From NCBI GenBank assembly GCA_903834145.1, contig CAILHY010000027.1, positions 1-64,000 on the forward strand: a stretch of DNA of 64,000 nucleotides. The letters run 5' to 3'. The position numbers were made by a program, and so were the translations under genes. The notes under the pieces were generated by a model. It was given only the letters and a program-made list of their open reading frames with translations, was not told the DNA's origin and did no database searches. The stretch comes from an uncultured Actinomycetes bacterium. Lineage in GTDB: Bacteria; Actinomycetota; Actinomycetes; Nanopelagicales; Nanopelagicaceae. Below, piece by piece: positions 24,884 through 44,900 of this stretch; within the stretch, counting starts at the first letter, position 1, and each line of letters starts with the position of its first letter.

Positions 24884-25893
24884 GCTTTTACTCCCAATCG
24901 TATTGCCCATTCTTGAATTTGTGAGCCCACTGTATCTGTAATAGTTATGTGGTCATCAGAATTAAGTGCGGTCGGATCTACACGAGTGCTACCAGGAAGT
25001 CGACCACCGGCTTCTGTCACTCCATCTTGAAATTGTGAAATGCGATCGTTAGGACCATCAACAGAAAGTTTCGATGCATCAATAGCAATCACGAAATGTG
25101 CAATCTCCTGCGGATTTGCATCTTGGGATGAGGCAAACATGTCAGGAATATTCTTAGCCAGGGTTGGTCCAACAAGAACTCCGGTCAGGGATTCAACCAG
25201 GACAGCCAATGCATAACCTTTAACCCCGCCCAGCGGTGCCAACATTCCTGCAAGAGCCGCTTTGGCATCGGTAGTCGGTTTTCCTTCTGCGTCAAAGGCC
25301 CAACCAGATTCCAGCACCTGATCTGATTGCGCTTTTGCAGCAATCTTGCCTCGGGCAACGGCGCTTGTTGCTAAGTCAATAATTGTTGGCGGGTTCGTTG
25401 GGATGCCTGCAGCAATAGGTGATGTCGAAAGAATGGGGGTCGTGCCATTCCAAGGGGGCATGACAGCAGGGCCGGTACTGAAAACAATGCCCACCAAATT
25501 CTGATTCACCATTGGCCACACGTAAATTCCAAGTGCACCACAGTGAGAAGATCGCCCAACCCCAACAGCTGCAATCCCATTTACCTTCGCACGTTCGGAT
25601 GCGATCTCGGAGGCGCGTTGAAGCTGCCAGTGTCCTAACCCGTCTTCGCCATCAAAAATTACAAGTCCAGGCAGATCAGTCACGATCTTCATAGTTGCTT
25701 TCGAATTGATTCCACCTGCTAGTAGGCGTTCGAGATAAAAGGGAAGTCGCATGAGGCCATGACTTCCTATTCCCCATCTATCACTTGCAATGATGCAGCG
25801 AGCACTTACTCGCGCTTTGGATTCTTCAAGTCCGGCGCAAACGAGCAGCTCTGTAGCAATACGAAGAGCGTTTCCAACTTGCAGACTTGCCAT
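24880..25893 (-). CDS. comC: Ldh-family dehydrogenase, probable (R)-sulfolactate dehydrogenase (ComC-like)
   Basis: A 337-residue member of the malate/L-lactate/ureidoglycolate dehydrogenase family (not the Rossmann Ldh). The family His is in RSSHCGALGIY and the cofactor region in PIAAGIPTNPPTIIDLATSAVARGKI. In sulfolactate-degrading bacteria ComC reduces sulfopyruvate to (R)-sulfolactate, working with SlcC to invert (S)-sulfolactate. Placement after an SlcC-like gene and SuyAB supports this; on sequence alone other 2-oxoacid substrates are possible. Two bases separate it from the SlcC-like gene. Confidence 0.82.
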   Translation of the reverse strand: MASLQVGNALRIATELLVCAGLEESKARVSARCIIASDRWGIGSHGLMRLPFYLERLLAGGINSKATMKIVTDLPGLVIFDGEDGLGHWQLQRASEIASERAKVNGIAAVGVGRSSHCGALGIYVWPMVNQNLVGIVFSTGPAVMPPWNGTTPILSTSPIAAGIPTNPPTIIDLATSAVARGKIAAKAQSDQVLESGWAFDAEGKPTTDAKAALAGMLAPLGGVKGYALAVLVESLTGVLVGPTLAKNIPDMFASSQDANPQEIAHFVIAIDASKLSVDGPNDRISQFQDGVTEAGGRLPGSTRVDPTALNSDDHITITDTVGSQIQEWAIRLGVKA

Positions 25894-25895
25894 GC

Positions 25896-26852
25896 CTATC
25901 GACTCGAAACCTTGTGAGTACCTACCGCATGAGTTGCTGGTTTGGAGGAAAGGACTAACTCAATATTGCTTGTGAGGATGTCGAAGATGCGATCTTGGCT
26001 CTCCTTTGTGATGCCAGCGATATGTGGTGCAAGAATTACTTGTGGGAGTGTTTCCAACTCTCCGACATGTGGTGGTTCTTCGGCTCGTACATCCAGAGCA
26101 GCACCTGAAATTGTTCCGCTCTTTAATGCAGTGAGTAAATCCGATTCATTAATCACTTCACCTCTCCCAACGTTTACGATAATCGCGCTCTTCTTCATCA
26201 GCGAAATCTTCTGAGAATTGATAAGGCCGTTAGTTTCATTATTGGACGGTAGATGAATGCTTAGAACATCCGAACCAACCAAAACGCTATCGAGATCAGT
26301 TAATTCAATACCTAAATCCTTTATACGAGAATCATTCGGATCCATAAATGGGTCATAGGCAAGGACTGTGCAATGGAAGCCTTTGAGCAGTGCGGCGGTG
26401 GCGCGTGCCGTTGCTCCACATCCCAACATCCCCCATGTAGATCCAGAGAGTTCTCGTCCAGCTTTGCGATTCCAGGAACCAGCGTGCGTGCTGGCATTAA
26501 GTTCAGTCACATTTCGCAGGAGGGCAATTGCTAATCCCAATGTCAGTTCACCAACACTTGTGGCGTTTGCTCCGAGTCCAGCTACAACAACAATGCCCGC
26601 ATCATCAGCTGCTTGAATATCAATATTGTCTAAACCCACACCTGCCCGCGCTATGACTTTAAGCTGTGGTGAGTGCGCAATCAATTCCCTCGTTACTTTT
26701 GTGCGATTGCGCACCACCAAAGCTTCTGCCCTGTTGAGTGCCGTGATTAACTCTTCTTTTCTGCTCCAAAGATTTGGGTCATAGTGAGTGTTGTGGCGCG
26801 TGCCCAACTCTTCAAATTGAACGCCCCATACATCTTCGGAGATTACGATCAC
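25896..26852 (-). CDS. slcC: D-isomer-specific 2-hydroxyacid dehydrogenase, probable (S)-sulfolactate dehydrogenase (SlcC-like)
   Basis: A 318-residue NAD-dependent dehydrogenase resembling phosphoglycerate dehydrogenase without its regulatory domain. It has ARAGVGLDNIDI, a cofactor loop GMLGCGATARATA (the usual GxGxxG reads GCGATA), VNVGRGEVI with the catalytic Arg region, DVRAEEPP and the catalytic His in LAPHIAG. SlcC oxidises (S)-sulfolactate to sulfopyruvate. The operon with SuyB (GTGA overlap), SuyA and a ComC-like partner makes this the best role. The start codon is GTG. Confidence 0.82.
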   Translation of the reverse strand: MIVISEDVWGVQFEELGTRHNTHYDPNLWSRKEELITALNRAEALVVRNRTKVTRELIAHSPQLKVIARAGVGLDNIDIQAADDAGIVVVAGLGANATSVGELTLGLAIALLRNVTELNASTHAGSWNRKAGRELSGSTWGMLGCGATARATAALLKGFHCTVLAYDPFMDPNDSRIKDLGIELTDLDSVLVGSDVLSIHLPSNNETNGLINSQKISLMKKSAIIVNVGRGEVINESDLLTALKSGTISGAALDVRAEEPPHVGELETLPQVILAPHIAGITKESQDRIFDILTSNIELVLSSKPATHAVGTHKVSSR

Positions 26853-28015
26853 GCGCTGATGTACAACTTCGTGAAGGTGTACTCGCGATGTCCCATGACT
26901 TCAGCGGCACAAAGGCGACCATTTACGGTGCGATTGATAACTTCCATCATGCGATCGCCAGCTTCTTTCAAGCTATATTCGAAGCGAAGTAGACCAGAAA
27001 CATCAAGATCCATGTGCTCGCTCATACTTGCTGCAGTCTTTGGGTTTGCAGTCAATTTCAGAACGGGTTCGATTGGATTTCCAATGACGTTTCCTTGTCC
27101 TGTAGGGAACAAGTGGATTACCGCTCCAGCTGCTGCCATCAAAGTGATGCACTCGGCTGCGGCTGATGAGCTATCCATGAAATACAAACCAGGCTTCTTT
27201 GGATCTGGCTCTTGCGCAGGCTTCAATACGCCCATCACGGGAACCGAACCAGTCTTGGCAATATTTCCAAGGGCTTTTTCTTCAATCGTTGTTAAGCCGC
27301 CAGCGATATTCCCTTGTGTCGGTTGGGATCCCAAAAGGTTTGCACCCGTTGATTCGATGACCTTGATGTAGTTGTCGTAAGTGGTTTGGAAAAGATTGCG
27401 GCAGGCATCATCAATGCAACGATCTGCAATGAGATGCTCTCCACCCGTGAGTTCACTCGTCTCACCAAACAAAACTGTTCCACCAGCTGCTACCCAACGA
27501 TCGACTGCCTCTGAAGTTGTTGGACATGATCCAAGTCCGCTCGTGGTGTCTGATTCTCCGCACTTAATGCTCATCATGAGATCCCCCATTTCGGCAGGTT
27601 CACGATTGATTTCACTTGCATCTTGCATAAATTGCGCGGCAACACGTGCTGCCTCAGCAATCACTGCAAGGTCTCCGCGACCTTCAATAGAGAACATCGC
27701 AACGGGCTTGCCTGTTGCGGCAATACCTTCAGCAACTTTCTTCGTCCATTTTGGTTCGATACCTATAACAACTACAGCGGCAACGTTTGGATTCTTGCCA
27801 GTGCCGATCAATGTTCGAAATGTAAGGTCTAGGTCTTCGCCAAATTGAAGACGGCCGAATGCGTGAGGCAGAGCCATCGTGCCAGGAATGATTTTGGCAA
27901 CTGCTTCAGCCGCGGCATTTGATAAGTCATCGAGAGGCAAAATAATGACGTGGTTACGGATACCCATCGTGCCGTTGGCGCGACGATATCCGGTTAGGCG
28001 CGGCTTGCTTCCCAT
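26849..28015 (-). CDS. suyB: (2R)-sulfolactate sulfo-lyase beta subunit
   Basis: A 388-residue UxaA-family lyase, the large subunit of the enzyme that splits (R)-3-sulfolactate into pyruvate and sulfite. It starts with the family's RRANGTMGIRNHV, has IGTGKNPNVAAVVVIGIEP (70-88) and KCGESDTTSG (151-160), close to what I recall of SuyB. It lacks the HxxGCG and GCE motifs of altronate dehydratases, as SuyB does. An AGGAG site is seven bases before the ATG, which lies inside the SuyA gene (22-base overlap). An altronate or galactarate-type dehydratase is the main alternative; the neighbours argue against it. Confidence 0.88.
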   Translation of the reverse strand: MGSKPRLTGYRRANGTMGIRNHVIILPLDDLSNAAAEAVAKIIPGTMALPHAFGRLQFGEDLDLTFRTLIGTGKNPNVAAVVVIGIEPKWTKKVAEGIAATGKPVAMFSIEGRGDLAVIAEAARVAAQFMQDASEINREPAEMGDLMMSIKCGESDTTSGLGSCPTTSEAVDRWVAAGGTVLFGETSELTGGEHLIADRCIDDACRNLFQTTYDNYIKVIESTGANLLGSQPTQGNIAGGLTTIEEKALGNIAKTGSVPVMGVLKPAQEPDPKKPGLYFMDSSSAAAECITLMAAAGAVIHLFPTGQGNVIGNPIEPVLKLTANPKTAASMSEHMDLDVSGLLRFEYSLKEAGDRMMEVINRTVNGRLCAAEVMGHREYTFTKLYISA

Positions 28016-28293
28016 CGATAACTCCTCATGTTGTGTGTGTGGATGTATTCACCAGTTTTAATGGGCGCCGATGCAACGCCTACCTGAATTCCATACTTAA
28101 TGATGGGATCGCCTTCGGCGTGATCAACGAGAGCAAACTTGTGCCCCAATGGAATAGCCTGATTGAGCACCGCTGTGCTCCATGTTCCTTGTTTCACCGA
28201 AGCACCCTTCAAGGTGCCTGGTTCCAAATCCTGCACTGCCACCGCGACGCTATCTCCGTCGTGATGGAGCAAGAATTGAGGTGCGCTCGTCAT
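27994..28293 (-). CDS. suyA: (2R)-sulfolactate sulfo-lyase alpha subunit (SAF domain)
   Basis: A 99-residue SAF-domain protein, the small subunit of sulfolactate sulfo-lyase. It has HDGDSVAVAVQDLEPG and the conserved HKFALVDHAEGDPIIKYGIQVGVA with the C-terminal GEYIHTHN. I start it at ATG 28293, preceded by GGGAGAGAG; a longer frame from 28458 would run through the operator and into the divergent gene. It is the first gene of the sulfolactate operon and has a FadR-like operator 27-37 bases upstream. Confidence 0.88.
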   Translation of the reverse strand: MTSAPQFLLHHDGDSVAVAVQDLEPGTLKGASVKQGTWSTAVLNQAIPLGHKFALVDHAEGDPIIKYGIQVGVASAPIKTGEYIHTHNMRSYRWEASRA

Positions 28294-28319
28294 GCTCTCT
28301 CCCTCTATGAATTCTGAAG

Positions 28320-28330
28320 TGGTCTGACCT
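28320..28330. promoter_or_regulatory. FadR/GntR-type operator site 1 (suyA promoter)
   Basis: TGGTCTGACCT within AAGTGGTCTGACCT. The 4-base arms GGTC/GACC around one base match the GntR/FadR form TGGTNNNACC. It lies 27 bases upstream of the suyA ATG. A second copy with 13 of 14 bases identical is at 28382-28395 beside the divergent gene. Confidence 0.72.
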
Positions 28331-28384
28331 CTTGGCAGATTGTAAGCGGTTTTACCGTGAGCGTCTACCCCCAAATACCGTAAG

Positions 28385-28395
28385 TGGTCTAACCT
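28385..28395. promoter_or_regulatory. FadR/GntR-type operator site 2, overlapping the -10 box of the divergent gene
   Basis: TGGTCTAACCT within AAGTGGTCTAACCT, a direct repeat of site 1. Its right half, TAACCT (28390-28395), is also the -10 box of a leaderless promoter: six bases follow before the ATG at 28402. A bound repressor would block that promoter. Confidence 0.72.
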
Positions 28396-28401
28396 GTGGC
28401 C

Positions 28402-29508
28402 ATGAGCAACACAATTCGCTACGGAATCATCGGCGCCGGAAGCATGGGCCGCGAACATATCGAAAACCTTAAAGTCATGGAAGGAGCCTTGGTTACGGCA
28501 GTCAGCGACCCGAATGAGGCCTCACGATCAGCCGCTCTGGCCATTGCCCACCCCGGAGCCGTGGCTTTTTCTGGACATCAAGAATTACTGGATTCTGGCT
28601 TGGTGGATGCAGTGGTGATCGCAACTCCCAATGACACACATGTTGATGTCTTGGCTGATGCGCTCTCTACTGCGGTTGCAGTGTTTGTAGAAAAACCTTT
28701 GGCAACAACTATTGCCGACTGTAAGAGGATCCTGGAATGGGACTCCAAGCGAAGTGCTCTCACATGGATGGGCCTTGAATATCGCTTTATGCCACCAGTC
28801 AATGACGTCATTCAACGTACCAAAGCTGGAGCCGTCGGAAAAGTTCACCAAGTATCCATCCGCGAACATCGTGAACCTTTCTACCCAAAAGTTGATAACT
28901 GGAATCGTTTTGCAATCCGTACAGGTGGAACTCTTGTAGAAAAATGTTGTCACTATTTCAATTTGATGGACCTCGTTCTTGGAGAACATCCAGAACGTGT
29001 TTTTGCATCTGGCGGGCAGAACGTTAACCACTTGGATGAAACCTATGCTGGTGAGCAGGCTGATATGTTAGATAACGCGTATGTGGTCTTGGAGTACGCC
29101 AGTGGCGCACGTGCCATGTTGGATTTATGCATGTTTGGAGAAGGTTCCTACGACAAAGAAATTCTCACCGTGGTGGGCGATGAAGGCAAACTCGAGTCCT
29201 TCTTACCTTCCCACAATGTGCGCTATAGCCGACGTGAGGATTGGGGTCGCAAAAGTGCGTGGGGTTCTAAAGAAGGAACTGGACGTGGTAGCGAGATCAA
29301 ACAAGTCACTGACCTGTCATTGAAATATCTTGGCCATCACTACGGGGCATCGCTCATCGAGCATGTGAAATTTCGCGATGCGATTATCAATGGGACTCCT
29401 GCCGAAGTAACACTGACTGATGGAATAACCAGCGTTGCTACTGGGCTTGCCGCTCACAAAAGTATCGCTGAAGGGCGCGTTGTTGCCTTAAGCGAGATTT
29501 GGGCGTAA
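28402..29508 (+). CDS. Gfo/Idh/MocA-family protein, candidate NAD-dependent sulfoquinovosidase
   Basis: A 368-residue NAD-binding protein with Rossmann motif GIIGAGSMG (8-16) and VEKPLATT (96-103). The usual GGxLxDxGxH stretch reads GGTLVEKCCHYFNLMD, with a Lys-Cys-Cys-His variant. It lies divergent from suyA and stops two bases from the convergent YihT-like aldolase gene, so it sits in the middle of the sulfosugar cluster and shares its operator. From memory, NAD-dependent sulfoquinovosidases (GH188) belong to this fold and occur in actinobacterial sulfoquinovose clusters; that would supply the missing glycosidase. A dehydrogenase of sulfoquinovose or sulfolactaldehyde is an alternative. The ATG at 28402 is chosen over GTG 28396 from promoter spacing. 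Confidence 0.75.
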   Translation: MSNTIRYGIIGAGSMGREHIENLKVMEGALVTAVSDPNEASRSAALAIAHPGAVAFSGHQELLDSGLVDAVVIATPNDTHVDVLADALSTAVAVFVEKPLATTIADCKRILEWDSKRSALTWMGLEYRFMPPVNDVIQRTKAGAVGKVHQVSIREHREPFYPKVDNWNRFAIRTGGTLVEKCCHYFNLMDLVLGEHPERVFASGGQNVNHLDETYAGEQADMLDNAYVVLEYASGARAMLDLCMFGEGSYDKEILTVVGDEGKLESFLPSHNVRYSRREDWGRKSAWGSKEGTGRGSEIKQVTDLSLKYLGHHYGASLIEHVKFRDAIINGTPAEVTLTDGITSVATGLAAHKSIAEGRVVALSEIWA

Positions 29509-29510
29509 AG

Positions 29511-30395
29511 CTACTTCCAACTTGTCCAGGGCTTGGCGTATTGATCAACGATCGCGCCAAGCTTTTCAAGTCTAGGAATAGAGACTTTGCTCAGTGCACC
29601 GGGAATATCAGCTGAACCGACAATGTCAGCCCAGACAGCGCGTCCCGCAAGAAAACCGCTTGCCCCGCCTTTGGCGCACGCTTCTACCGCGCTCGCAAAG
29701 GATTCCGCTTTTACGCCATTGGAAAGAACAACCCATGGTCCGCCGATCACGTCGGTGATGCGCTGTGCATTACGAGTTATTGCCGCAAGGTCACCCTCTC
29801 CATGGAAAGGCACCTCTGCTTTGTAGAGATCGGGTTTCCAGGTTGCCGCCTCAATAGCAGCAGTGATCAATTGTTCTTCGCGATCAAAAGCAATATCCGC
29901 TGAATTGGGTGCTTTCACGATGATTTCGATAATGGAAGGCAACCCGGCGCTCTGGCAGACACTAAGAAATTCATCAACGAGAATCCGTCGTTGTTCAACA
30001 CTTTCATCGGCCCTCCATAGGACCAAGAATTTGAGTCCTACTGCACCGATTTCTTTCATGCGAATTGGATCTACATCGTGATCTACGGCGGTATCGGTTG
30101 CCGCGCCACCTGCAGGACCAAGAAGTAAATCTGCGGCAGCAATGAGTCCACACCCACCGGTCAGGGCCTTCTGATCGACAATGGCATCGATTCCAAATTC
30201 TTGATCCACGAGAAGCGCTGAGGCATATGGAGACAACTCACGTGCAACATCGACTTTGAATTGCGTCAATTGCGCATCAGAAACTGGGCCATCTTGAAAC
30301 TTGGCAAACATTCCGCGTAGCGCTTCGCGCTGGTCCACTGCAACCATTGCCAGCGTGCCAGAAGGTCGGGCTAACTTTTCCAGTGATGCTCTCAT
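29511..30395 (-). CDS. yihT: 6-deoxy-6-sulfofructose-1-phosphate aldolase (YihT-like)
   Basis: A 294-residue class I aldolase that should split 6-deoxy-6-sulfofructose 1-phosphate into DHAP and 3-sulfolactaldehyde. It follows E. coli YihT along the whole length: AMVAVDQREALRGMF near the start, SPYASALLVDQEFG, LKFLVLWRADE, the Schiff-base lysine in DLYKAEVP (Lys192; 193 in E. coli), and GGASGFLAGRAVWA near the end. The start at ATG 30395 gives an ATGA overlap with the kinase gene; the longer frame from 30503 would run deep into that gene. Tagatose-bisphosphate aldolase is the nearest alternative, but the kinase and SuyAB context favours the sulfosugar. Confidence 0.9.
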   Translation of the reverse strand: MRASLEKLARPSGTLAMVAVDQREALRGMFAKFQDGPVSDAQLTQFKVDVARELSPYASALLVDQEFGIDAIVDQKALTGGCGLIAAADLLLGPAGGAATDTAVDHDVDPIRMKEIGAVGLKFLVLWRADESVEQRRILVDEFLSVCQSAGLPSIIEIIVKAPNSADIAFDREEQLITAAIEAATWKPDLYKAEVPFHGEGDLAAITRNAQRITDVIGGPWVVLSNGVKAESFASAVEACAKGGASGFLAGRAVWADIVGSADIPGALSKVSIPRLEKLGAIVDQYAKPWTSWK

Positions 30396-31279
30396 GTGTT
30401 TTTCTCCAGATAGGTGTCGAGTTCGGACAAAGTCGGAATTTCTGACTGACCATCTAGGCCAAGGCAAGATAAGGCGGCCACGGCATTTGCGCGCCTGAGG
30501 CAATCTGGTAATTCTCGCCCTTGAACTATTTGCGCAACGAGAGCTCCATGGAAAACATCGCCGGCGCCTAACGTGCTCACTACTTCTACCGCAAATCCTT
30601 CTGCTTCATAAAACGATCCATCGCGCACTGCCGCGCTCCCAAGTGATCCACGAGTTGCCACAACAGTGTTGTTGCTCTCTCGTGAATCTTTTTCTAGCGC
30701 TTGCCTCAAAGAAAGGGAAGGATGACGCGCCGCCATTTGGCGATCGGTCGGAACGAAGAGATCTACTAAAGCGGCATCGAAAGTTTCAACTCCGTAACCG
30801 GCATCGAATGAAATATATGGACCAGTCCCACGTGAAATTCCAAGTGCCTGTAGTTGGGTTATTCCCACATGATCACAGTGAATCCATTGAGCTTGGGATA
30901 CGAGTTCGATGGCACGTGAATTAGGTTTGCTCTGAATAGGTGGTTGCCTGGTGCTTATTGCTCGAGAGTGATGCTCGCGCGAGGCAATAATGACGCTTCC
31001 TCCTGTAGGTGCGCTTCCTACGGATACTCCTGATGAATCAATGTTTTCTCGCTCAAAAATGCGCAAGATTTCACGGCCATCCTCATCGTCCCCGATAGTT
31101 CCTACGATGGCTACGGAGATCCCTTGTCGAGCCAGAGTTACTGCAGATACTGCGGCAGGACCTCCCCCGGCTCTGATGATTTGGTCGGCAATTACACGCT
31201 CATCTTCACCTGGGTAGCGATCAACGGAGGCGATTGTGTCGATAGTAATTACTCCAACACACACCACTTCAGGTTTCAC
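30392..31279 (-). CDS. yihV: PfkB-family kinase, 6-deoxy-6-sulfofructose kinase (YihV-like)
   Basis: A 295-residue ribokinase-fold sugar kinase with GGGPAAVSAVTLARQG (38-53) and the catalytic motif STLGAGDVFHGAL (Asp241 as base). The stretch VEVVSTLGAGDVFHGAL is very close to YihV's VDVVDTTGAGDVFHGAL as I recall it. It would phosphorylate sulfofructose at C1 for the aldolase encoded by the overlapping next gene. It follows the GntR regulator gene by five bases. Confidence 0.82.
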   Translation of the reverse strand: MKPEVVCVGVITIDTIASVDRYPGEDERVIADQIIRAGGGPAAVSAVTLARQGISVAIVGTIGDDEDGREILRIFERENIDSSGVSVGSAPTGGSVIIASREHHSRAISTRQPPIQSKPNSRAIELVSQAQWIHCDHVGITQLQALGISRGTGPYISFDAGYGVETFDAALVDLFVPTDRQMAARHPSLSLRQALEKDSRESNNTVVATRGSLGSAAVRDGSFYEAEGFAVEVVSTLGAGDVFHGALVAQIVQGRELPDCLRRANAVAALSCLGLDGQSEIPTLSELDTYLEKNT

Positions 31280-31284
31280 AATAA

Positions 31285-31983
31285 TTACTTATCTTTTGCA
31301 AAATCCAGGGCAGTCTTTCGCGCACCAGAAATATGTTGAAGCGTAAGTTTGGCGGCAAGGGCTCCGTCGCCAACTTCAATCGCGGTCAAAATTGCATTGT
31401 GTTCGGTTTTTGATATTTCAGAACGTCCCGGCAGCCGCAAGGTAGTTTCCATGGACATCTGCATTACATCCTGCAAAACACCAAGAGTCTGATTGATGAA
31501 TCTATTTGCAGCAACATTAACAATGGTTAAGTGAAATTTTGCATCCAATATTTGCAGTTCGTCGTAATCAACAGGCGTTATCGCAGTAATGTTCGCCATC
31601 TGGTTGAGAATCGTGCGCAAAATACGAATATCTTCCTTCGTCGCTTTCTCTGCCGCCCATCGTGATGCTGGAACTTCTAAAACTTCACGGGCGTCATAAA
31701 GTTCGTTTAGGTCATGAGTCTTTGTCATAACCTTCGCTCTAAGCTCTTGTGCCACCAAAGGTTCCTGCACAAAGGAACCCTGTCCATGTTTAATCGAAAC
31801 AAGTCCCTGTGCTTGAAGAATATGTAGAGCCTCACGCAGACTTGGTCTACTTACTGCCAGCAGATTCGCCAAAGCTCGTTCGGGAGGCAGACGATCCCCT
31901 GGAGATAACTTCTTAGATTCGATGATGTCCACTAATTGTGAGGCAATGCGTTCGGCCCTCTGAGGTGATGCAATCGCTGGCAT
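31285..31983 (-). CDS. GntR/FadR-family transcriptional regulator (FCD domain)
   Basis: A 232-residue repressor with an N-terminal winged helix (residues about 10-75: SPGDRLPPERALANLLAVSRPSLREALHILQAQGLV) and a helical FCD ligand domain (about 90-220), with the DAKFHLTIVNVAANRFI histidine segment that often binds a metal. It is encoded inside the sulfosugar operon. Four FadR-like palindromes (28320, 28385, 36664, 36771) at the promoters of this system are its likely targets; sulfoquinovose, sulfolactate or a phosphorylated intermediate may be the inducer. Confidence 0.92.
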   Translation of the reverse strand: MPAIASPQRAERIASQLVDIIESKKLSPGDRLPPERALANLLAVSRPSLREALHILQAQGLVSIKHGQGSFVQEPLVAQELRAKVMTKTHDLNELYDAREVLEVPASRWAAEKATKEDIRILRTILNQMANITAITPVDYDELQILDAKFHLTIVNVAANRFINQTLGVLQDVMQMSMETTLRLPGRSEISKTEHNAILTAIEVGDGALAAKLTLQHISGARKTALDFAKDK

Positions 31984-31993
31984 GGTGGAAACC

Positions 31994-32809
31994 CTACCCT
32001 TTCACGGCGCCAGCAGTCAGACCAGCGATGAAGGAGCGCTGCATAAATATATACATCGCAATCATCGGCACTGAAGCAACCATAATGGCGGTGAAAAGCA
32101 TGCTGTAACTCGTTGCAAATTCTCCACGGAAATCAATCAAGGTCAACGGCAATGTTTTCTTGTCTAACTGAGTAATCAACATCAATGGATAAAGCAAGTC
32201 GTTCCAACAGATGACAAAGAGAAAGATTCCTGTTGCTCCAAGGGCCGGACGTGAAAGCGGAAGCGCGATTGAGCGATAAATTCGAAGATGTCCTGCTCCA
32301 TCGATGCCCGCTACCTCATACATTTCCTTGGGAATGTCCTTGAAGAATGAGGTCAATATGAAGATAGAAATGGGCAAGGTTAAGGCAATATTTACCAAAA
32401 TAAGGCCAACAAGAGAATTGGTTAAATGCAGTTTTACGAATAAATGGTAGATAGGAATGATGTTGACCTGCCCGGGGATTGCAAGTCCCAATGAGAAAAG
32501 CATGAAGAGCATGCGACCAGTAATGGTCGTCATTCTGGCAATTCCGTATGCAGCAAGGCTTGCAAAGAGCAAAGTTATTGCGACTGAGAATAGTGAAACG
32601 ATCACACTGTTCTTAAAAGGAGTAAAGACATTGCCTTCATGAATAAGGGTTCTAAAGTTATTGAAATTCCAACTCTTTGGAAGTGCCAAAGGATTTGAAT
32701 AGATTTCATTGTCCTTCTTAAATGCACCTAATACGACAATCGAACTTGGCACGATGACCGCTAAAGCAAAGATTGAGAGCATCGTATTTTTAAATACTTT
32801 ATACATCAT
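31994..32809 (-). CDS. sugar ABC transporter permease, MalG-type
   Basis: A 271-residue inner-membrane permease with about six helices and the EAA loop EVAGIDGAGHLRIYRSIALPLSRPA. It pairs with the MalF-type permease encoded by the overlapping gene upstream (ATGA). By context it imports sulfoquinovose or its glycerol glycoside. No ATPase gene is present in the cluster, so a shared MsmX/UgpC-type ATPase from elsewhere is likely used. Confidence 0.92.
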   Translation of the reverse strand: MMYKVFKNTMLSIFALAVIVPSSIVVLGAFKKDNEIYSNPLALPKSWNFNNFRTLIHEGNVFTPFKNSVIVSLFSVAITLLFASLAAYGIARMTTITGRMLFMLFSLGLAIPGQVNIIPIYHLFVKLHLTNSLVGLILVNIALTLPISIFILTSFFKDIPKEMYEVAGIDGAGHLRIYRSIALPLSRPALGATGIFLFVICWNDLLYPLMLITQLDKKTLPLTLIDFRGEFATSYSMLFTAIMVASVPMIAMYIFMQRSFIAGLTAGAVKG

Positions 32810-33654
32810 TTCTTCACCCCGTAATCGATACGAAGCGTACGACGCTGTAACCAGGTGACCAGTAGTACAACAAGAATTAGAACAACTGATTGAGCAGATG
32901 CATAGCCATACTTAAAGCTAGCAAAAGCAGTGTTGTAAATGCTCGTGACAATCAGATCAGAGGAATTTTGAGGTCCGCCCTGCGTCATAGAATAAACAAG
33001 GTCAAAGGCACGGAAGGATTGAATTGTCGTGTATGCCACAACAACCGCAGTAGTCGGTAGAGCCATTGGCCAAGTAATGTTTTTAAATTGTTGCCAACGT
33101 GTGGCTCCGTCTACTTCTGCTGCTTCATAGAGATCTGCGGGAATCTGCTGGAGGCCAGCAACATAAATAATTACCATCTGCCCTGTGTGGAACCAAATTT
33201 GGGTGACTGCGATGGCGTAAAGAGAATATTTGGTATCGCCGAGCCAATTGAGGGCCAAACTATTGAGACCCATCGCTTTGAGCGTTGCATTAATGAATCC
33301 AAAATTTGGGTTATACAAGAAGGTCCAAATGAGGCCGACAGAAACTGAAGACAAGATTGTCGGAAAGAAATAAATAACGCGAAGAAAGATCGTTGTCTTG
33401 GTGTTCTTCAAGAGAAAGGTTGCGAAAAGCAAAGAGAATGCAGTTTGGAAAATGACAACGATCAGCGTAAACCGGATGTTGTTCCCCACGATTCGACGAA
33501 AAAGATCATCGCTTGTCGCCAGATGAACAAAGTTATGTAGTCCCACTTGCTGCGGTTTAGTCACGCCATCCCAGCGTTCAGTGGCGTAGAGCAAGTTTTG
33601 CACTGCGGGATAAAGATAAAGAAATGAATACACCGCAACGGCAGGAAGTGCCAT
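32806..33654 (-). CDS. sugar ABC transporter permease, MalF-type
   Basis: A permease of 282 residues from the first standard codon, with EAA loop EAAEVDGATRWQQFKNITWPMALPT. The frame stays open upstream of the ATG at 33654 and encodes a basic stretch (KGKRRDKESKILIA) that looks like the normal cytoplasmic N-terminus, yet it has no ATG, GTG or TTG. A non-standard start (for example CTG 20 codons upstream) is possible, or the short form is real. The long perfect hairpin at 33709-33741 lies in this upstream stretch. Confidence 0.88.
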   Translation of the reverse strand: MALPAVAVYSFLYLYPAVQNLLYATERWDGVTKPQQVGLHNFVHLATSDDLFRRIVGNNIRFTLIVVIFQTAFSLLFATFLLKNTKTTIFLRVIYFFPTILSSVSVGLIWTFLYNPNFGFINATLKAMGLNSLALNWLGDTKYSLYAIAVTQIWFHTGQMVIIYVAGLQQIPADLYEAAEVDGATRWQQFKNITWPMALPTTAVVVAYTTIQSFRAFDLVYSMTQGGPQNSSDLIVTSIYNTAFASFKYGYASAQSVVLILVVLLVTWLQRRTLRIDYGVKK

Positions 33655-33708
33655 TGCAATAAGGATCTTTGATTCTTTGTCGCGGCGTTTACCTTTGAAC
33701 AGCCCTTT

Positions 33709-33741
33709 GACAGCCTTGCCGCTTGTGGCGGCAAGGCTGTC
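33709..33741. repeat. perfect hairpin between the binding-protein and permease genes
   Basis: GACAGCCTTGCCGC, loop of 5, GCGGCAAGGCTGTC: a perfect 14-base stem. It lies 24 bases downstream of the stop of the binding-protein gene and before the permease start, with no T run after it on the minus strand. Such hairpins often protect the binding-protein mRNA or cut expression of the permeases relative to it. Confidence 0.8.
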
Positions 33742-33764
33742 TCGGGATGTAACTGAGGAGCTAA

Positions 33765-35213
33765 TTACGCTCCGAATGACTGTTTGATCGTCTTGGATGT
33801 GTCAGCCAGTGTCTTTGTAACGTCTGCTCCACCGCCGATGGCGATGAGTGCATCTTCCAAAGGATTACGGACTGTTCCAACATTGTTGAACAAGAAACGT
33901 GGTGCAAGAAGCAACTTCTTGCCCATGATGTCTGAAGTGTTCAACAAATCAATGTTTGCAGAGTAATTAACATTGATGATCGAAACATGTTGCGAAGTTC
34001 CTACTGCATATTCTTGTGCGATAGGTGCTGTTGCAAGGAAGGAGATGAACGCACGTGCGATGTTTTGATCACGTGATGTCGCCTTGGCGTTAACACTCAA
34101 AATGAAAGTGTTATTTGTGATGCCTTGGTACAAAGGCTTCTCATCCACGGTGATCATGGACATGAGCTTCATCTTGCCCTTCATTGCTGGATTGAGATTT
34201 GTAACGGTACTCATACCAAATGTTCCTGTTGGGTAGATGGCAGCTTTTCCGTTAGCAAAATCTGCTGGAGCAACGGTGTCGTTGTATCCAGTAACGTTTG
34301 CAGGGAAGCATCCTGAATCTGCCATTTGCTTGTACTTGTTAGCAATGGCAACAAACCAATCTGATGTGAGATCAGCTTTTCCAGTATCGATTGCTTGGAT
34401 GCGACTTGTGAGAGTTGCTAGGTCAGGCGCTGAATTCATAAGGAATGAGTTCATGATCTGTCCTGCATTTCCACGTGTTGCTGCTGGCCATGCAAATGGA
34501 ATGATTCCGGCTGCTTTTACTGTCTTGCAGAAGGAAAGAAGCTGTGTCCAGTTTGTAGGGACGCTCCATTTGTGAGCTGCGAACATTTCTGTGTTGTACA
34601 GCGGATCATTAAAGAGTGATTGGTATGGAACTCCATAGACCTTACCGCCCACGATGCCCGGTGTTAAAGCACTTTGAATGACGTTCTGACGAACGAAACG
34701 ATCAGAACTGATATCGCGGAGTAATCCGCCTTTGTAGAACTGATCGAACTGTCCACCGCGAACCGTTACGAATACCGCAGCCTTAGGGTTAACGCTGATC
34801 TTTGCGTAAGCCAAGTTGGTGTAATCGTTAGAACTCATGATGACCTGATTAACATGTGTTCCTGGATTTGCCGCTTCAAACTTAGCAATAATGCTTGCAA
34901 ATACTGCCTTGTCCTCTGGGCGGAAATGATGGAATTCAATGGTGCCAGGTGATGCCTTAAGTGCAGCAACGGGGGCACCTGTTGATTGACCCAAACGAAC
35001 ATTGGTCCAGGTGAGTTTGCCGTTGTCGCCCATTGTGCAAACGAGAGATGATGATGATGTGCCGGTACTGACACCTTCGGTAGTACATGCTTTTCCGAAA
35101 GAAGGATCTGCGGCAAAGCCGGTTGTGATGGATGTGGCAACAAGCGCAAATGCAATTGTTGCTACAGCGCCTAACCGACGTGCGCTAAAGGATTTCATTC
35201 CTTGAGTTTTCAT
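33765..35213 (-). CDS. sugar ABC transporter substrate-binding protein (family 1)
   Basis: A 482-residue exported binding protein. The signal peptide (basic start, hydrophobic core 13-34, cleavage near GFAA) is followed by a short extra module with a Cys pair (ACTTEG, Cys43; LVCTMGDNGKLTW, Cys59 and Trp69) that common sugar-binding proteins lack. The family 1 binding fold starts near residue 88 (GTIEFHHFRPEDK). No lipobox Cys is at the cleavage site, so anchoring is unclear. By context the ligand is sulfoquinovose or sulfoquinovosyl glycerol, as for SmoF in other bacteria, but similarity to SmoF was not tested. Confidence 0.88.
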   Translation of the reverse strand: MKTQGMKSFSARRLGAVATIAFALVATSITTGFAADPSFGKACTTEGVSTGTSSSSLVCTMGDNGKLTWTNVRLGQSTGAPVAALKASPGTIEFHHFRPEDKAVFASIIAKFEAANPGTHVNQVIMSSNDYTNLAYAKISVNPKAAVFVTVRGGQFDQFYKGGLLRDISSDRFVRQNVIQSALTPGIVGGKVYGVPYQSLFNDPLYNTEMFAAHKWSVPTNWTQLLSFCKTVKAAGIIPFAWPAATRGNAGQIMNSFLMNSAPDLATLTSRIQAIDTGKADLTSDWFVAIANKYKQMADSGCFPANVTGYNDTVAPADFANGKAAIYPTGTFGMSTVTNLNPAMKGKMKLMSMITVDEKPLYQGITNNTFILSVNAKATSRDQNIARAFISFLATAPIAQEYAVGTSQHVSIINVNYSANIDLLNTSDIMGKKLLLAPRFLFNNVGTVRNPLEDALIAIGGGADVTKTLADTSKTIKQSFGA

Positions 35214-35250
35214 CTGTTGTAGTCCTTGCGTCTTGGAGGGGTGGGTTGAT

Positions 35251-36651
35251 TTACCATTCAGTGAGGGGGATCCCTAACATGTCTGCCATTCTGCGAAGTT
35301 CCGGTCGCACATCGATCCACGAGATCACGAGGTGGTGCGGATATCCGCGAGTGACTATTCCATTCACCAGAGCAGCAGCGTTAGGTTCAGTTCGAACCGT
35401 TGCCGTATTGCCTTGGAAGTGATTGGGAGCAGGGATCGATTCCCCTCGGCTCACAACCATGCGCAGCCCCGTGCTATTGCTTGGGTCTACGTCCCGATCA
35501 ATACGAACCAGAGTTACTGGGCCGGTCTTGAGCGGAAAGTTACCTGCGACGCCTAAACGTCGATTGCAGTGGGTAAATTGCGTGGCATCTGTTGGATCGG
35601 CAGCCAATTTTGTTGCCGCTGAACCGCAATGCCACAAGCGAAGAATGTTCTCGTCCTCTTGCAAATCAACGATGTCCACTAAATAGTTTTCATCCGAACC
35701 AAGAACTTCGCAGACCAACATCGTGACCGCACCAAGAACATCTCGTTCGCAAGTTGTAACGGTTCCGCGATCAGAGAGACGCCCAAGAGCTGAACACACA
35801 CATGCGCCAAGTTCGGTTGGAAATTCTGGCCAACAACGCACCGCAATTGCATCAAGGGCTTCTTGATCGCGCCATTCATCTAGCGCAACTTCGACACCTG
35901 CAACTTTTGTTGCTTCGTCTTGATTTACGGATGCAAGTGATCCTTGTGCCGCGATTGCCCGTGAATTGGCTGCGATACTTTCAGTGGCAGGTACTTTTGC
36001 AATTCGTGCAAATGCGCCTTCAATGGAGATCGGCATTATCTCCAAGCCAAAAAGCTCCTTTAATTTTGGCCCGTTATAAAGACACGGTGTAAATCCAACC
36101 GGTGCTTCTCCTATTGTTCCTATGCGCATTCCTGAAAGCTTTGCGAGCGCCGCATTTGTCTTTGCTATGTCGCCAAGTTCGCGCACATGATTATCTGGTG
36201 CTAAATCACTCGGTAAATCTCCTGCAAGGGCGCGAATAAGAGTTTGCTTCACTGCGCTCTCGTCCGCATTGCCGTGCAAGTGGCGAACACTTTGGCCGGC
36301 ATCCATCAGTGCATGTGCTGCCAGGTTTGCACCGCACATGGAATTCAATTTAAGTCGCTCACCAACTTCGCCAGGTTCGCGCATCGACCATAAAAGAATT
36401 GGACCATCAACATTCCCGAATACCTCAACTGCAGGGGAGGCATCTGAAAAGGAGGCCATGAAAAGGATGTGGAGATCTACTTCTGGCAGCGTTATTGCTG
36501 CGACATCCTCGGCAGTCATGACGAGTTCGGCTGGTCCCACGACATCGCCACCAAGGCTGCGCAGGAGCGCAGCGGCAGAATCAAAATTTGCTTGGGCACA
36601 TGCGAGGTCAAAGGTAGGACGTGCTAACGCTACGAGAGCGACTCTGCTCAC
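35251..36651 (-). CDS. L-fucose/L-arabinose isomerase-family protein, candidate sulfoquinovose isomerase
   Basis: A 466-residue sugar isomerase-like protein. Family marks are WPEFPTELGACVCSALGRLSDRG (from residue 274), CERDVLGA (301-308, metal-ligand region) and LRLWHCGSAA (340-343 is WHCG). It is unrelated to YihS (AGE fold), the E. coli sulfoquinovose isomerase, but is the only aldose-ketose isomerase candidate in the cluster. I recall fucose-isomerase-like enzymes being proposed for some non-enterobacterial sulfo-EMP routes. The start is GTG 36651, preceded by GGGGG; a frame from 36714 would run over the operator. It heads the transport-regulator-kinase-aldolase operon. Confidence 0.8.
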   Translation of the reverse strand: MSRVALVALARPTFDLACAQANFDSAAALLRSLGGDVVGPAELVMTAEDVAAITLPEVDLHILFMASFSDASPAVEVFGNVDGPILLWSMREPGEVGERLKLNSMCGANLAAHALMDAGQSVRHLHGNADESAVKQTLIRALAGDLPSDLAPDNHVRELGDIAKTNAALAKLSGMRIGTIGEAPVGFTPCLYNGPKLKELFGLEIMPISIEGAFARIAKVPATESIAANSRAIAAQGSLASVNQDEATKVAGVEVALDEWRDQEALDAIAVRCWPEFPTELGACVCSALGRLSDRGTVTTCERDVLGAVTMLVCEVLGSDENYLVDIVDLQEDENILRLWHCGSAATKLAADPTDATQFTHCNRRLGVAGNFPLKTGPVTLVRIDRDVDPSNSTGLRMVVSRGESIPAPNHFQGNTATVRTEPNAAALVNGIVTRGYPHHLVISWIDVRPELRRMADMLGIPLTEW

Positions 36652-36663
36652 ATTGACCCCCAG

Positions 36664-36674
36664 TGGTTTGACCT
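36664..36674. promoter_or_regulatory. FadR/GntR-type operator site 3 (isomerase operon)
   Basis: TGGTTTGACCT within AGTGGTTTGACCTCTT, which matches site 1 (AGTGGTCTGACCTCTT) at 15 of 16 bases. It lies 13-23 bases upstream of the isomerase GTG. Sites this alike 8 kb apart at two promoters of one pathway suggest a shared regulator. Confidence 0.72.
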
Positions 36675-36770
36675 CTTCTGGAGGAGGGTGCCACCAAGTA
36701 GCCCCTGGAGTCAATGAAAACGCGTAATTTTCTAGATTGTTACCTACTTGTGATAATCGACGATAAGAGG

Positions 36771-41583: not shown

Positions 41584-41859
41584 ATGCGCAAGATCCTGAT
41601 CCTGCACGTCAACGATAATGTGGCTGTAGCACTTACCGATATTTCGCAGGGAGAGCTAATAAGTCAAGATGAATATCTTTTCACTGCCAAAGACAACATT
41701 GCCCGCGGACATAAGCTTGCGACTCGCAATATTTCAATCAATGAAGGAATCATAAAATACGGCGAACGGATGGGGCATGCCACTTCAGAAATCAGAACTG
41801 GCGAGCACGTACACGTTCACAATGTTTTGGGCGATCGCCTGTCAAGCGAGGTGAAATGA
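41584..41859 (+). CDS. SAF-domain protein (UxaA/SuyA small-subunit type)
   Basis: A 91-residue stand-alone SAF domain like the N-terminal part of altronate dehydratase or SuyA: NVAVALTDISQGE, ARGHKLATRNISINEGIIKYGERMGHATSEIRTGEHVHVHN. The HVHVHN ending is the form of altronate dehydratases (in SuyA here it is YIHTHN). Its stop overlaps the next start (ATGA). It should be the small subunit of a lyase or dehydratase built with the two UxaA-like proteins that follow. Confidence 0.88.
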   Translation: MRKILILHVNDNVAVALTDISQGELISQDEYLFTAKDNIARGHKLATRNISINEGIIKYGERMGHATSEIRTGEHVHVHNVLGDRLSSEVK

Positions 41860-42668
41860 CTTCGAACGGATTCGATCATGGAAAAAGAGGAATAGGTGTA
41901 AGAAATCACCAACTCATACTCCCTTCTGTCGTTTGCTCCACCCACATATCTAGGCGAATCGCTTCAGCCGTTGGTGCACTCTCTTTCTCTCATCAGCATG
42001 GTTGCGGAATTATCGGAGCCGATGTTGCGGGAATTGAAGATTTCTTCGGTGCCCTTGCAAACCATCCCAATGTTTCGTCATGTCTGATTGTTTCTCTCGG
42101 CTGTGAAACTATCCAAGGCCAGGAATTAGGTGCACGCCTTGCATCGGCGAATGTTTCAACGAAGTATCAAATCATTCAGGATTCTGGTGGTGTCGAAGCA
42201 ACTGTGTCAGCAGGAATTTTAGCTGCACGTCATTTACAAGAGTCATACCCTCCTGTGAAGGCTGCTTTCGGAAATATCACCGTTGGTATTGACCTGTGCA
42301 GAGAAAGCGCCCAGATTGCCGAATTGATAGCTGGGCTTTCCGAAGTGGGAGTTGAAACGATTGTTGCCAGGCAAGGAAAGAGTTCAGCAGAGAACTTCTC
42401 GCAGTTGATGCTCGCTAAAGCTCATGTAATTCTCTCATTCCCATCACCTGATCAACCAGCATCAGGTTTTCCACTCATTCCCGTGATTAATGTTGCAAGT
42501 GAAAGTTCATTGCATCAAGGGATAGTCGCTGATTTCGACCTGGCTCACGAGTCAACTATTGAAGCGACAATTTCTCGCATTATGGAAGTGGCCGATGCTC
42601 AAGCAACGATTGCAGAAATGAATGGGACGGGAGAGATTCTTGCTCCTCGATTGGTTAGAAGCACATGA
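41856..42668 (+). CDS. short UxaA-family paralog retaining the N-terminal cysteine motifs
   Basis: A 270-residue UxaA-like protein, about 110 shorter than its neighbour. It begins with GIGVRNHQLILPSV and keeps HQHGCGIIGAD (46-56) and LGCE (81-84), motifs typical of altronate or galactarate dehydratases. The second half is shrunken, and the ECGGSDxxSG motif is replaced by IDLCRESA (145-152). The end still resembles the family (PLIPVINVAS). ATGA overlaps on both sides tie it to the SAF protein and the full-length paralog. It probably works only as part of a mixed complex. Confidence 0.72.
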   Translation: MTSNGFDHGKRGIGVRNHQLILPSVVCSTHISRRIASAVGALSFSHQHGCGIIGADVAGIEDFFGALANHPNVSSCLIVSLGCETIQGQELGARLASANVSTKYQIIQDSGGVEATVSAGILAARHLQESYPPVKAAFGNITVGIDLCRESAQIAELIAGLSEVGVETIVARQGKSSAENFSQLMLAKAHVILSFPSPDQPASGFPLIPVINVASESSLHQGIVADFDLAHESTIEATISRIMEVADAQATIAEMNGTGEILAPRLVRST

Positions 42669-43840
42669 GCCATTCACCGATAAGGGCATACCTTCGGCCG
42701 AATGGCTCATGGGGATTGCGAAATCACGTTCTGGTGCTTCCACTTCATTCAGCGCTCTCATCGAGTGCACGCGCTATCGAAGATGCTTGTCCTGGAGCTG
42801 TGGCTATAACCCACGACTGGTCGGGTGAAGTAGATGGTGATCTGCAAAGGATTATTAGGATTTTGGCAGGTTTTGCTTCCAATCCAAATAACTTTGCCAC
42901 GATCTTTCTATCGTTGGGTTCAGCCAATGAAGAGGAAATTATCGCGCAAGCGGAAAATCTAGGTTTGGCCAATGTTGTGCATTTATCATTACCGCATATT
43001 GGTTCGACAAAGTTGCTTATTGATGTGGGAATCCGAGAAGCAAGTGATCTGCTTGTAAGGGCTCATGAGCAAATCAGAATCGAAGCCCCTTGGAGCGCGA
43101 TCGTTTTAGGACTCGAATGCGGAGGTTCAGACGCGCTCTCCGGAATTACTGCGAATCCTGCTCTGGGCGTTGCCAGTGACAGGCTCGTCGAGTTAGGTGC
43201 CATGTCGGTTTTAGGTGAAACAACAGAGATCCTTGGGGCTGAACATCTTCTTGCTGCTCGAGCGATCACTCAAGATATTGGGCAGCGAATTATTGAGACT
43301 GTTGCGCGATATGAAAAATCAATTAACTACGAAGGAATTGATTTACGCGGTGCTCAACCATCTCGTGGAAATATTGAAGGTGGCCTTTCTACATTGGAGG
43401 AGAAATCACTGGGTGCCGCAAAGAAGGCAGGAAATGCCCAACTGAGTGGTGTTCTCGAATACGCAGAAATACCTCCTGCAAGAGGTTTGTACTTCATGGA
43501 TACACCTGGACATGACATCGAACAGCTCACCGGATATGCCGCAGGTCATATCAATATTGTGGTTTTTACCACTGGACGTGGGACTCCGACAGGATCGGCG
43601 ATTATGCCTGTAATTAAAGTTGCAACGAATTCTCCTATGGCCATGAAGTTGAGTGACCTGATTGATTTAGACGCAGGCTCAATCGCCGATGGAATGGAAA
43701 CTCTTGCAGAAGTCGGTACTCGGATTTTCGATGAGATTATTCGGATCGCTAATGGATGTGAAACTAAAGCCGAAATCTCTGGAAATCATGAATTTGCACT
43801 TTCACGGATGTATAAGACAATTGTTTCTTATGACGCCTAA
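42665..43840 (+). CDS. UxaA-family lyase/dehydratase large subunit
   Basis: A 391-residue UxaA-family protein without a SAF domain. It has RPNGSWGLRNHV at the start and ECGGSDALSGITANPALG (151-168) with LGETTEILGAEHLLAARA. It lacks the HxxGCG motif (THDWSG, 49-54) and the GCE motif (LGSANEE, 84-90), the two that its shorter neighbour keeps. In this it resembles SuyB. The substrate is a hydroxyacid, perhaps a sugar acid or sulfonate; nothing nearby fixes it. The next gene overlaps it by 11 bases. Confidence 0.82.
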   Translation: MSHSPIRAYLRPNGSWGLRNHVLVLPLHSALSSSARAIEDACPGAVAITHDWSGEVDGDLQRIIRILAGFASNPNNFATIFLSLGSANEEEIIAQAENLGLANVVHLSLPHIGSTKLLIDVGIREASDLLVRAHEQIRIEAPWSAIVLGLECGGSDALSGITANPALGVASDRLVELGAMSVLGETTEILGAEHLLAARAITQDIGQRIIETVARYEKSINYEGIDLRGAQPSRGNIEGGLSTLEEKSLGAAKKAGNAQLSGVLEYAEIPPARGLYFMDTPGHDIEQLTGYAAGHINIVVFTTGRGTPTGSAIMPVIKVATNSPMAMKLSDLIDLDAGSIADGMETLAEVGTRIFDEIIRIANGCETKAEISGNHEFALSRMYKTIVSYDA

Positions 43841-44900
43841 ACTTTTCGATCCGCTTGTAATCCGCGACCTGACGATTGCTAATCGCGTTTGGGTAAGTCC
43901 TATGTGCCAGTACTCATCAACGGACGGGATCGTAGGTGAATGGCATCGAGTCCACCACGGAGCATTTGCCACAGGAGGATCTGGCCTTATTTTTATGGAG
44001 GCAACGGGAGTAGTTCCTGAAGGCAGAATTTCTATCGGATGTCCAGGAATTTGGAACGATGAGCAAGTTGCTGCGTTCAAACCCATTACCGCGTTCGCAC
44101 ATTCCATGGGCACGCTCATGGGAATTCAACTAGCGCATGCAGGGCGCAAAGCTTCAACTACACGGCCAGGATCCGATCATCCATTTGCAACTGCTGAAGA
44201 AGGTGGCTGGGAGAGCGTTAGCGCAAGTGCCATTGCTTATCATGGGATGCCAACTCCGCGTGCTCTCACCGTTGAAGAAATACATGTCCTAACGAAAGAT
44301 TTTGCAAAGGCTGCCGTTCGCGCAGTAGATGCCGGTTTTGATGTGATTGAAATTCACGCAGCGCATGGATATCTACTCCACCAGTTCTATTCCCCAGTCT
44401 CCAATCAGCGCAGCGATGAATATGGCGGATCCTTTGATAATCGAATTCGTTTTCTTCTTGAAGTAACCCAGGAAGTTCGCGATGCAATCTCTTCAAGCGC
44501 CCCCCTCTTTGTTCGCATTTCGGCATCGGATTGGATTGAGGGCGGTTGGACTATTGATGAGTCAGTTGCACTTTCCAAAGAACTGAAGGCGCTTGGGGTC
44601 GATCTCATAGATGTTTCGTCAGGGGGCAATGTACACAACGCTCCGATCACACCTGGACCTGGTTACCAAGTTCCATTTGCAGAAAGTATTCGCACCAACG
44701 CGAACATTATGACGTCGGCCGTGGGCATGATCTGGGAACCAGAATTCGCGCAGGAAATCGTTTCATCAGGGAAAGCTGATGCTGTAATGCTTGCTCGTGA
44801 AATGTTGCGAAATCCCCACTGGCCACAAATGGCAGCGGAAAAATTAGGTGTCAAGATTCCTGTGCCTATTCAATATGAGCGAGCAAGAACCCTTAATTAG
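43830..44900 (+). CDS. old yellow enzyme family NADH:flavin oxidoreductase (YqjM class)
   Basis: A 356-residue FMN TIM-barrel ene-reductase. The redox-tuning Cys26 and Tyr28 (SPMCQYSS) mark the thermophilic-like YqjM/XenA class, and the substrate His pair lies in EIHAAHGYLLHQF. It reduces activated C=C bonds. I start it at ATG 43830 (MTPKLFDPL), matching the family N-terminus; a longer frame from 43689 lies in the preceding gene. Coupling to the UxaA-like set hints that it acts on their unsaturated or 2-keto product. Confidence 0.92.
   Translation: MTPKLFDPLVIRDLTIANRVWVSPMCQYSSTDGIVGEWHRVHHGAFATGGSGLIFMEATGVVPEGRISIGCPGIWNDEQVAAFKPITAFAHSMGTLMGIQLAHAGRKASTTRPGSDHPFATAEEGGWESVSASAIAYHGMPTPRALTVEEIHVLTKDFAKAAVRAVDAGFDVIEIHAAHGYLLHQFYSPVSNQRSDEYGGSFDNRIRFLLEVTQEVRDAISSSAPLFVRISASDWIEGGWTIDESVALSKELKALGVDLIDVSSGGNVHNAPITPGPGYQVPFAESIRTNANIMTSAVGMIWEPEFAQEIVSSGKADAVMLAREMLRNPHWPQMAAEKLGVKIPVPIQYERARTLN

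Follow-up and report, generated by a model that had tools for sequence, protein, structure and literature searches.

Can the metal site of one enzyme be divided between two paralogous subunits, each of which has lost what the other has kept? The question is raised by three adjoining genes in a 64-kb stretch of DNA on contig C27 (the whole stretch that was analysed, hereafter the window) of a 1.75-Mb, 98.6% complete Nanopelagicales genome, which encode a SAF protein, a 270-aa UxaA paralog (b1), and a 391-aa UxaA paralog (b2). We propose that the products of these genes quite likely form a single sugar-acid dehydratase of the UxaA/GarD superfamily, heteromeric and iron-dependent, with an iron site contributed by two subunits, a reading drawn from motifs, alignments, and gene arrangements.

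Watanabe and colleagues (PMC6336799) describe four conserved cysteines across the superfamily except SuyAB and propose for them a ferric-iron site of the rubredoxin kind, a point for which the authors call for further analysis. They report Cys134, Cys173, Cys208, and Cys276 together with a rubredoxin-like iron signal in the D-arabinonate dehydratase C785_RS13685 of Herbaspirillum huttiense, refer to Cys-to-Ser mutants, and mention the L-fuconate dehydratase pair of Paraburkholderia as a two-part UxaA enzyme. Three of the family cysteines lie in the second domain and the fourth in the C-terminal CGGSD motif; the assignment of the four published cysteines to VxC, HxxGC, LGCE, and CGGSD is our own mapping, by chain order and conservation.

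Domains divided over three chains and cysteines over two

By Pfam, b1 matches GD_AH_second (89.8 bits) without a GD_AH_C match, b2 matches both GD_AH_second (56.9 bits) and GD_AH_C (309 bits), and the SAF subunit is the counterpart of the UxaA/GarD N-terminal domain. The domains of a single-chain UxaA/GarD enzyme are thus all present, spread here over three chains (Table 1), which places the trio in this superfamily (COG2721).

Table 1 Positions of the trio's genes and motifs, and of a SuyAB-type comparator pair, within the window
Feature	Position	Strand	Basis or remarks
SAF subunit, 91 aa	41584..41859	+	Pfam SAF 36.4 bits; b1 adjoins SAF in trios
ATGA overlap SAF/b1	41856..41859	+	sequence
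b1, 270-aa UxaA paralog	41856..42668	+	Pfam, alignments, profile comparison, AlphaFold2
b1 C27 codon (ILPSVVC), proposed iron ligand 1	41934..41936	+	invariant 46/46; column is first conserved family Cys
b1 H46-C50 (HQHGC), proposed iron ligand 2 = C50	41991..42005	+	H46, C50 invariant 46/46
b1 C83-E84 (LGCE), proposed iron ligand 3 = C83	42102..42107	+	invariant 46/46
b1 shortened GD_AH_C-derived C-terminal half, without CGGSD	42258..42665	+	alignments, profile comparison; haloarchaeal counterpart
ATGA overlap b1/b2	42665..42668	+	sequence
b2, 391-aa UxaA paralog	42665..43840	+	Pfam, alignments, structural match of model
b2 degenerate second domain, HDWSGE and LGS replacing HxxGC and LGCE	42686..43057	+	Pfam, alignments
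b2 ECGGSD, proposed iron ligand 4 = C152	43115..43132	+	invariant 46/46
SuyAB-type pair, comparator outside the trio	26849..28458	-	SAF 154 aa, 27994-28458; 388 aa, 26849-28015

The original prediction for this locus held that the 270-aa paralog has HQHGCG and LGCE but lacks ECGGSDxxSG, that the 391-aa paralog has ECGGSDALSG but lacks both cysteine motifs, and that ATGA overlaps join the three genes. All of this holds: both cysteine motifs occur only in b1, ECGGSDALSG occurs only in b2, and both overlaps are present. Its list of cysteine motifs was correct for the HQHGCG and LGCE cysteines and incomplete in overlooking a third conserved cysteine of b1, C27 in ILPSVVC. An alignment with UxaA and GarD of E. 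coli shows the second-domain motifs ILPSVVC, HQHGCG, and LGCE preserved in b1, and the C-domain motifs ECGGSDALSGITANP, GN..GG, and TTGRG preserved in b2. Mapped against the altronate and galactarate dehydratases, the published family cysteines fall on both motif sets, so that all four are found within the trio (C27, C50, and C83 of b1 and C152 of b2) and the canonical layout of four cysteines in one polypeptide is absent from it. The four columns hold cysteine throughout in 20 of 20 canonical sequences, in the first three columns only (CCC-) in b1, and in the fourth only in b2, each in 13 aligned; no cysteine occurs at the three lost positions of b2 in the aligned set.

Judged by alignment, b1 is more than motif-poor, since its C-terminal domain lacks the front part. 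This half of b1 aligns to the end of GD_AH_C (QPASGFPLIPVINVAS vs GTPTGSAIMPVIKVAT), with the domain front including CGGSD missing, and a profile comparison matches b1 to b2 across both halves (E 5.6e-17). The small subunit of the haloarchaeal trios described below, although longer than b1, has a GD_AH_C match confined to positions 112-240 (70.6 bits). A PDB sequence search with b1 gave no match, and Foldseek with the b1 model gave no confident PDB match (GarD was absent among the 50 matches listed), so the homology of the b1 C-terminal half is argued from alignment and profiles.

The trio shares its domains and four cysteines with E. coli UxaA (D-altronate dehydratase) and GarD (galactarate dehydratase, PDB 6u7l), but in these enzymes one chain holds all four cysteines, whereas the trio has three chains and divides the cysteines three plus one over two degenerate paralogs. 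The D-arabinonate dehydratase C785_RS13685, with four cysteines in one polypeptide, and two-part canonical UxaA enzymes, with all four in the large subunit, are likewise unlike the trio. SuyAB sulfolactate sulfo-lyase and other two-part UxaA enzymes resemble it in having SAF as a separate gene, and SuyB-type proteins resemble b2 in that the three second-domain cysteines are gone; in contrast to the trio, SuyAB has a single large subunit, no b1-like partner, and CGESD where b2 has CGGSD. The ECGGSD of b2, the presence of b1, and trees that put b1 and b2 outside the Suy clade all exclude the trio from SuyAB. The 388-aa SuyB-type protein of the window has CGESDTTSG and is without the second-domain cysteine motifs. 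As for the claim that such a layout is not known from described UxaA or SuyAB enzymes, we found no description of it in the open-licence literature searched.

Conservation and spread of the split

A scan of the genome collection gave 47 loci, 45 of them with both b1 and b2, and together with the window 46 trios. An assembly error or window-only artefact was ruled out, as the trio also stands in the complete genome CP015606 of actinobacterium IMCC26077, a member of the same family as the window's genome, and in 46 loci in all. The order SAF-b1-b2 is fixed, with frames that overlap or nearly abut, and no trio departs from C27, H46, C50, C83, and E84 in b1 or from E151-D156 in b2. Across genera b1 is 42-67% identical, and for pairs with dS < 1.5 its median dN/dS is 0.080 (second domain 0.048, C-terminal half 0.090), compared with 0.061 for b2 and 0.116 for SAF. 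The pairwise distances of b1 and b2 correlate (r=0.94), partly through shared descent. Among the matches listed for 296 genomes of the order, b1 occurs in 48, a b2-type second match accompanies it in 48 of 48, and a single genome (G388) has b2 without b1. Database records of b1 homologs come from Ca. Planktophila, Ca. Nanopelagicus, and actinobacterial MAGs, that is, freshwater Nanopelagicales, while some records labelled Bifidobacterium or Streptomycetaceae look like mislabelled bins; the viral contigs scanned with b1 gave no match.

These data bear on whether b1 is a decaying pseudogene beside a functional or dying enzyme, one of two findings that the original prediction had named beforehand as fatal to it. 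Such decay would accord with a b1 that is shorter than canonical large subunits and has no catalytic motif, but b1 is intact in 46 loci with a dN/dS of 0.08 and invariant motif residues, always stands with b2, is carried by 48 genomes, and yields a well-folded AlphaFold2 model (mean pLDDT 87, pTM 0.87). Because the split is invariant in 46/46 trios under purifying selection, the short paralog is not decaying, and we regard a pseudogene as extremely improbable. The other finding named as fatal, metal ligands at different residues, did not emerge either, given that the published family cysteines map onto the two motif sets.

Separately, three Nanopelagicales genomes carry orphan b1 relatives of 343-374 aa (L015:1480-2604, L023:1171-2274, L024:1315-2346), in which few cysteines remain, with no SAF or CGGSD gene alongside; they adjoin sugar ABC transporters and enolase-superfamily or MFS genes.

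When looked for in other genomes, the split was found, beyond the 46 Nanopelagicales loci, in haloarchaeal trios and in Rubrobacter and Pantoea fusions. A phylum-wide search gave 16 genomes, all of one family, with a single 895-955-aa ORF carrying two GD_AH_second domains, among them the Rubrobacter indicoceani plasmid NZ_CP031116, and a Pantoea soli plasmid encodes an 875-aa fused protein that is 42% identical. The fused order is SAF, a Cys-less second domain with an intact CGGSD C-domain, then a three-Cys second domain with a C-domain remnant lacking CGGSD, and the cysteines are divided 3+1 in 17/17. These 875-955-aa fusions, likewise entered in public records as 'UxaA family hydrolase', share with the trio the 3+1 split and the loss of CGGSD in one half, and differ from it in being one SAF-b2-b1 chain. 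Haloarchaeal plasmids carry three adjoining genes, each annotated 'UxaA family hydrolase', in the order large-SAF-small: a large subunit of 393-398 aa, typically with HQMGT, LGTE, and ECGGSD; a SAF protein of 101-107 aa; and a small subunit of 340-382 aa with VIC, H.HGC, and LGCE but without CGGSD. All nine that were examined show the 3+1 division, one small subunit having a stray cysteine near the fourth position, outside any CGGSD motif, and 16 haloarchaeal plasmids carry a small subunit at least 49% identical to the query. The 3+1 split and the loss of CGGSD in one paralog are thus common to the haloarchaeal and Nanopelagicales trios, which differ in gene order and in the longer archaeal small subunit.

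Public records of the haloarchaeal and Rubrobacter/Pantoea split proteins carry no function. The gene surroundings of the fused and archaeal forms (FAH hydrolase, KDG permease, GH28, mannonate dehydratase, and Nramp metal transporters) fit metal-dependent sugar-acid breakdown. Nramp divalent-metal transporter genes stand near the split UxaA genes in Rubrobacter indicoceani (L160:10590-14730) and Haladaptatus caseinilyticus (L163:4986-9048), a possible metal-supply link.

The same comparisons weigh on the idea of two separate enzymes with different reactions, co-transcribed by chance and each using other residues. Other residues are indeed conserved as well (H50-D51-W52 in b2 and C-terminal residues in b1), but a single SAF gene would have to serve both enzymes, their co-occurrence is strict, the natural fusion has one SAF, and the losses are complementary and not independent; this idea is accordingly very unlikely. 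The predicted division of active-site motifs between the two paralogs is supported by the cysteine mapping, the natural fusions, and the archaeal trios.

Whether the split arose once was addressed with trees, in which long branches are involved. b1 and the haloarchaeal small subunit form a group (support 94/82), and the two fused halves, FusA and FusB, make up one side of a branch (98/92). For the second domain (138 columns), AU tests rejected no arrangement with one origin (p 0.14-0.46); for the C-domain, a clade of all Cys-less partners (FusA, b2, and the haloarchaeal large subunit) was rejected marginally (p 0.048), and a clade of b2 and the haloarchaeal large subunit was not rejected (p 0.084). 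We suggest, tentatively, that split-site UxaA enzymes may be a distinct class of bacteria and archaea with a four-Cys iron site formed in trans by complementary paralogs, which perhaps arose more than once, in the trios and in the separately partitioned Rubrobacter/Pantoea fusion.

The proposed composite site and the role of b1

In the heteromeric enzyme that we propose, duplication of a UxaA large subunit would have been followed by complementary loss. In b1 the cysteine-rich second domain would have been retained, along with three of the four proposed iron ligands, while the C-terminal domain lost its front part; in b2 the substrate/catalytic C-terminal domain with the fourth ligand would have been retained and the other three ligands lost. 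The b1-b2 pair would replace the ancestral homodimer, the b1 second domain and the b2 CGGSD domain forming a composite site and the reciprocal, doubly crippled site being dead, with SAF, a chain of its own in two-part UxaA enzymes too, as the third part. The iron site of b1 and b2 would then help to dehydrate the substrate to a 2-keto-3-deoxy acid. Such a site would require either contact between second domain and C-domain across subunits or b1 taking the place of b2's own second domain; in GarD, the second domain is reportedly the dimer interface and calcium reportedly sits in the C-terminal domain. The rubredoxin-like iron site underlying this reading is tentative, and we infer the physical complex, the iron in the site, the one live site per heterodimer, the substrate, and the 'obligate' dependence that was originally predicted.

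The b2 model (pLDDT 79) superposes on GarD 6u7l over both domains (TM 0.75, E 1.5e-24). Its low-confidence stretches are 155-162, 222-225, 229-245, and the C-terminus, the first three of which coincide with some of its most invariant loops. Low confidence on invariant loops would fit a site that is ordered by a partner, though this is only suggestive, as a shallow alignment could give the same.

Alternatively, b1 might be an accessory protein outside the active site (an iron chaperone, or an assembly or regulatory subunit), with SAF and b2 as the enzyme, as in SuyAB. SuyB-type enzymes, including the one in the window, have the C-terminal cysteine only and no b1-like partner, and by analogy with SuyAB enzymes, which work as two parts without the three cysteines, b2 could in principle work without b1. 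Since SuyB has a Cys-less second domain without such a partner, the loss in b2 alone is no proof of dependence. Against an accessory role, b2 has ECGGSD and canonical C-domain motifs, unlike the CGESDTTSG of SuyB, and b1 is a paralog of the same two-domain plan; in each of three gene arrangements it has exactly the ligands that b2 has lost, and in Rubrobacter and Pantoea the two are fused. We therefore consider an accessory b1 unlikely. The strength of the case for a shared site lies in this precise match between what b1 has and what b2 has lost, which recurs across all three arrangements, the fusions among them.

Pathway context and implications

The trio occurs in 28 of the 30 genomes of the order with UxaC (uronate isomerase) and in 20 of the 266 without it (p=4.5e-24, uncorrected for phylogeny), and roughly a dozen loci have UxaC and a fructuronate/tagaturonate-reductase-like gene directly next to it on the opposite strand. 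Contig C32 of the window's genome encodes UxaC (483 bits) and a fructuronate/tagaturonate-reductase-like gene, as well as a KDPG aldolase (Eda-like), a KDG kinase (KdgK-like), a sugar ABC transporter, and a GntR-type regulator, these four recognised by eye without a profile. UxuA was not found in this genome, which encodes no UxaA-type protein besides the trio and the SuyB-type protein. Given the co-occurrence with UxaC, the neighbouring UxaC and reductase genes, the genome's own uronate genes, and the lack of UxuA, D-altronate is the predicted first choice of substrate in Nanopelagicales, a choice towards which this gene context leans, and a related aldonate is predicted otherwise. Uronate breakdown would then run from UxaC through the reductase, the trio enzyme, and KDG kinase to KDPG aldolase, and the trio enzyme would serve in the use of plant sugar acids. 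Because no UxaC was detected in 20 of the 48 trio genomes, the substrate may differ among them. The dehydration step could alternatively be the work of an IlvD/EDD-type dehydratase, recognised by eye, whose gene adjoins UxaC (L161:11510-13243).

The uronate group of the window's own genome (L161:6481-11513, G000:C32) comprises an esterase, UxaC, the reductase, and an FMN-dependent lactate-dehydrogenase-like protein, homologs of which (cluster 0) stand near the trio in 18 other loci.

Within the window, positions 23897-36714 (mostly on the minus strand) hold an apparent sulfosugar-to-sulfolactate cluster that includes the SuyA/SuyB-like pair, an SftI-like sulfoquinovose isomerase (272 bits, below the cutoff of 700), a sugar ABC transporter, GntR, a PfkB kinase, a tagatose-bisphosphate-type aldolase, and phosphoglycerate-dehydrogenase-like and L-sulfolactate-dehydrogenase-like genes. 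This cluster, which would suggest organosulfonate use by freshwater Nanopelagicales, has its own SuyAB-type pair and ends ~5 kb from the trio, which elsewhere adjoins UxaC and reductase genes. An old-yellow-enzyme (OYE) family gene (43830-44900, plus strand) shares 11 bases with the end of b2 and was not seen there in the other trio loci listed. The immediate neighbours, ABC exporter genes upstream and the OYE gene downstream, were dropped as functional clues because most other trio loci lack them.

If the proposed reading is true, the trio would offer a clear example from nature of duplicated genes degenerating in complementary ways, with the paralogs dividing not only a pathway step but a metal site between them, and the divided site would be seen in bacteria, in archaea, and as a fusion. 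Several origins, if true, would strengthen the functional argument, and if the split-site class is real, canonical UxaA/GarD homodimers would carry iron sites across the subunit interface. Two questions thereby become directly testable: where iron is located in UxaA/GarD enzymes, and whether the subunits of these enzymes share active sites. For annotation, the warning is that a single enzyme can be encoded by three adjoining genes that are each labelled 'UxaA family hydrolase', and for abundant freshwater actinobacteria the trio is a candidate dehydratase for uronate breakdown.
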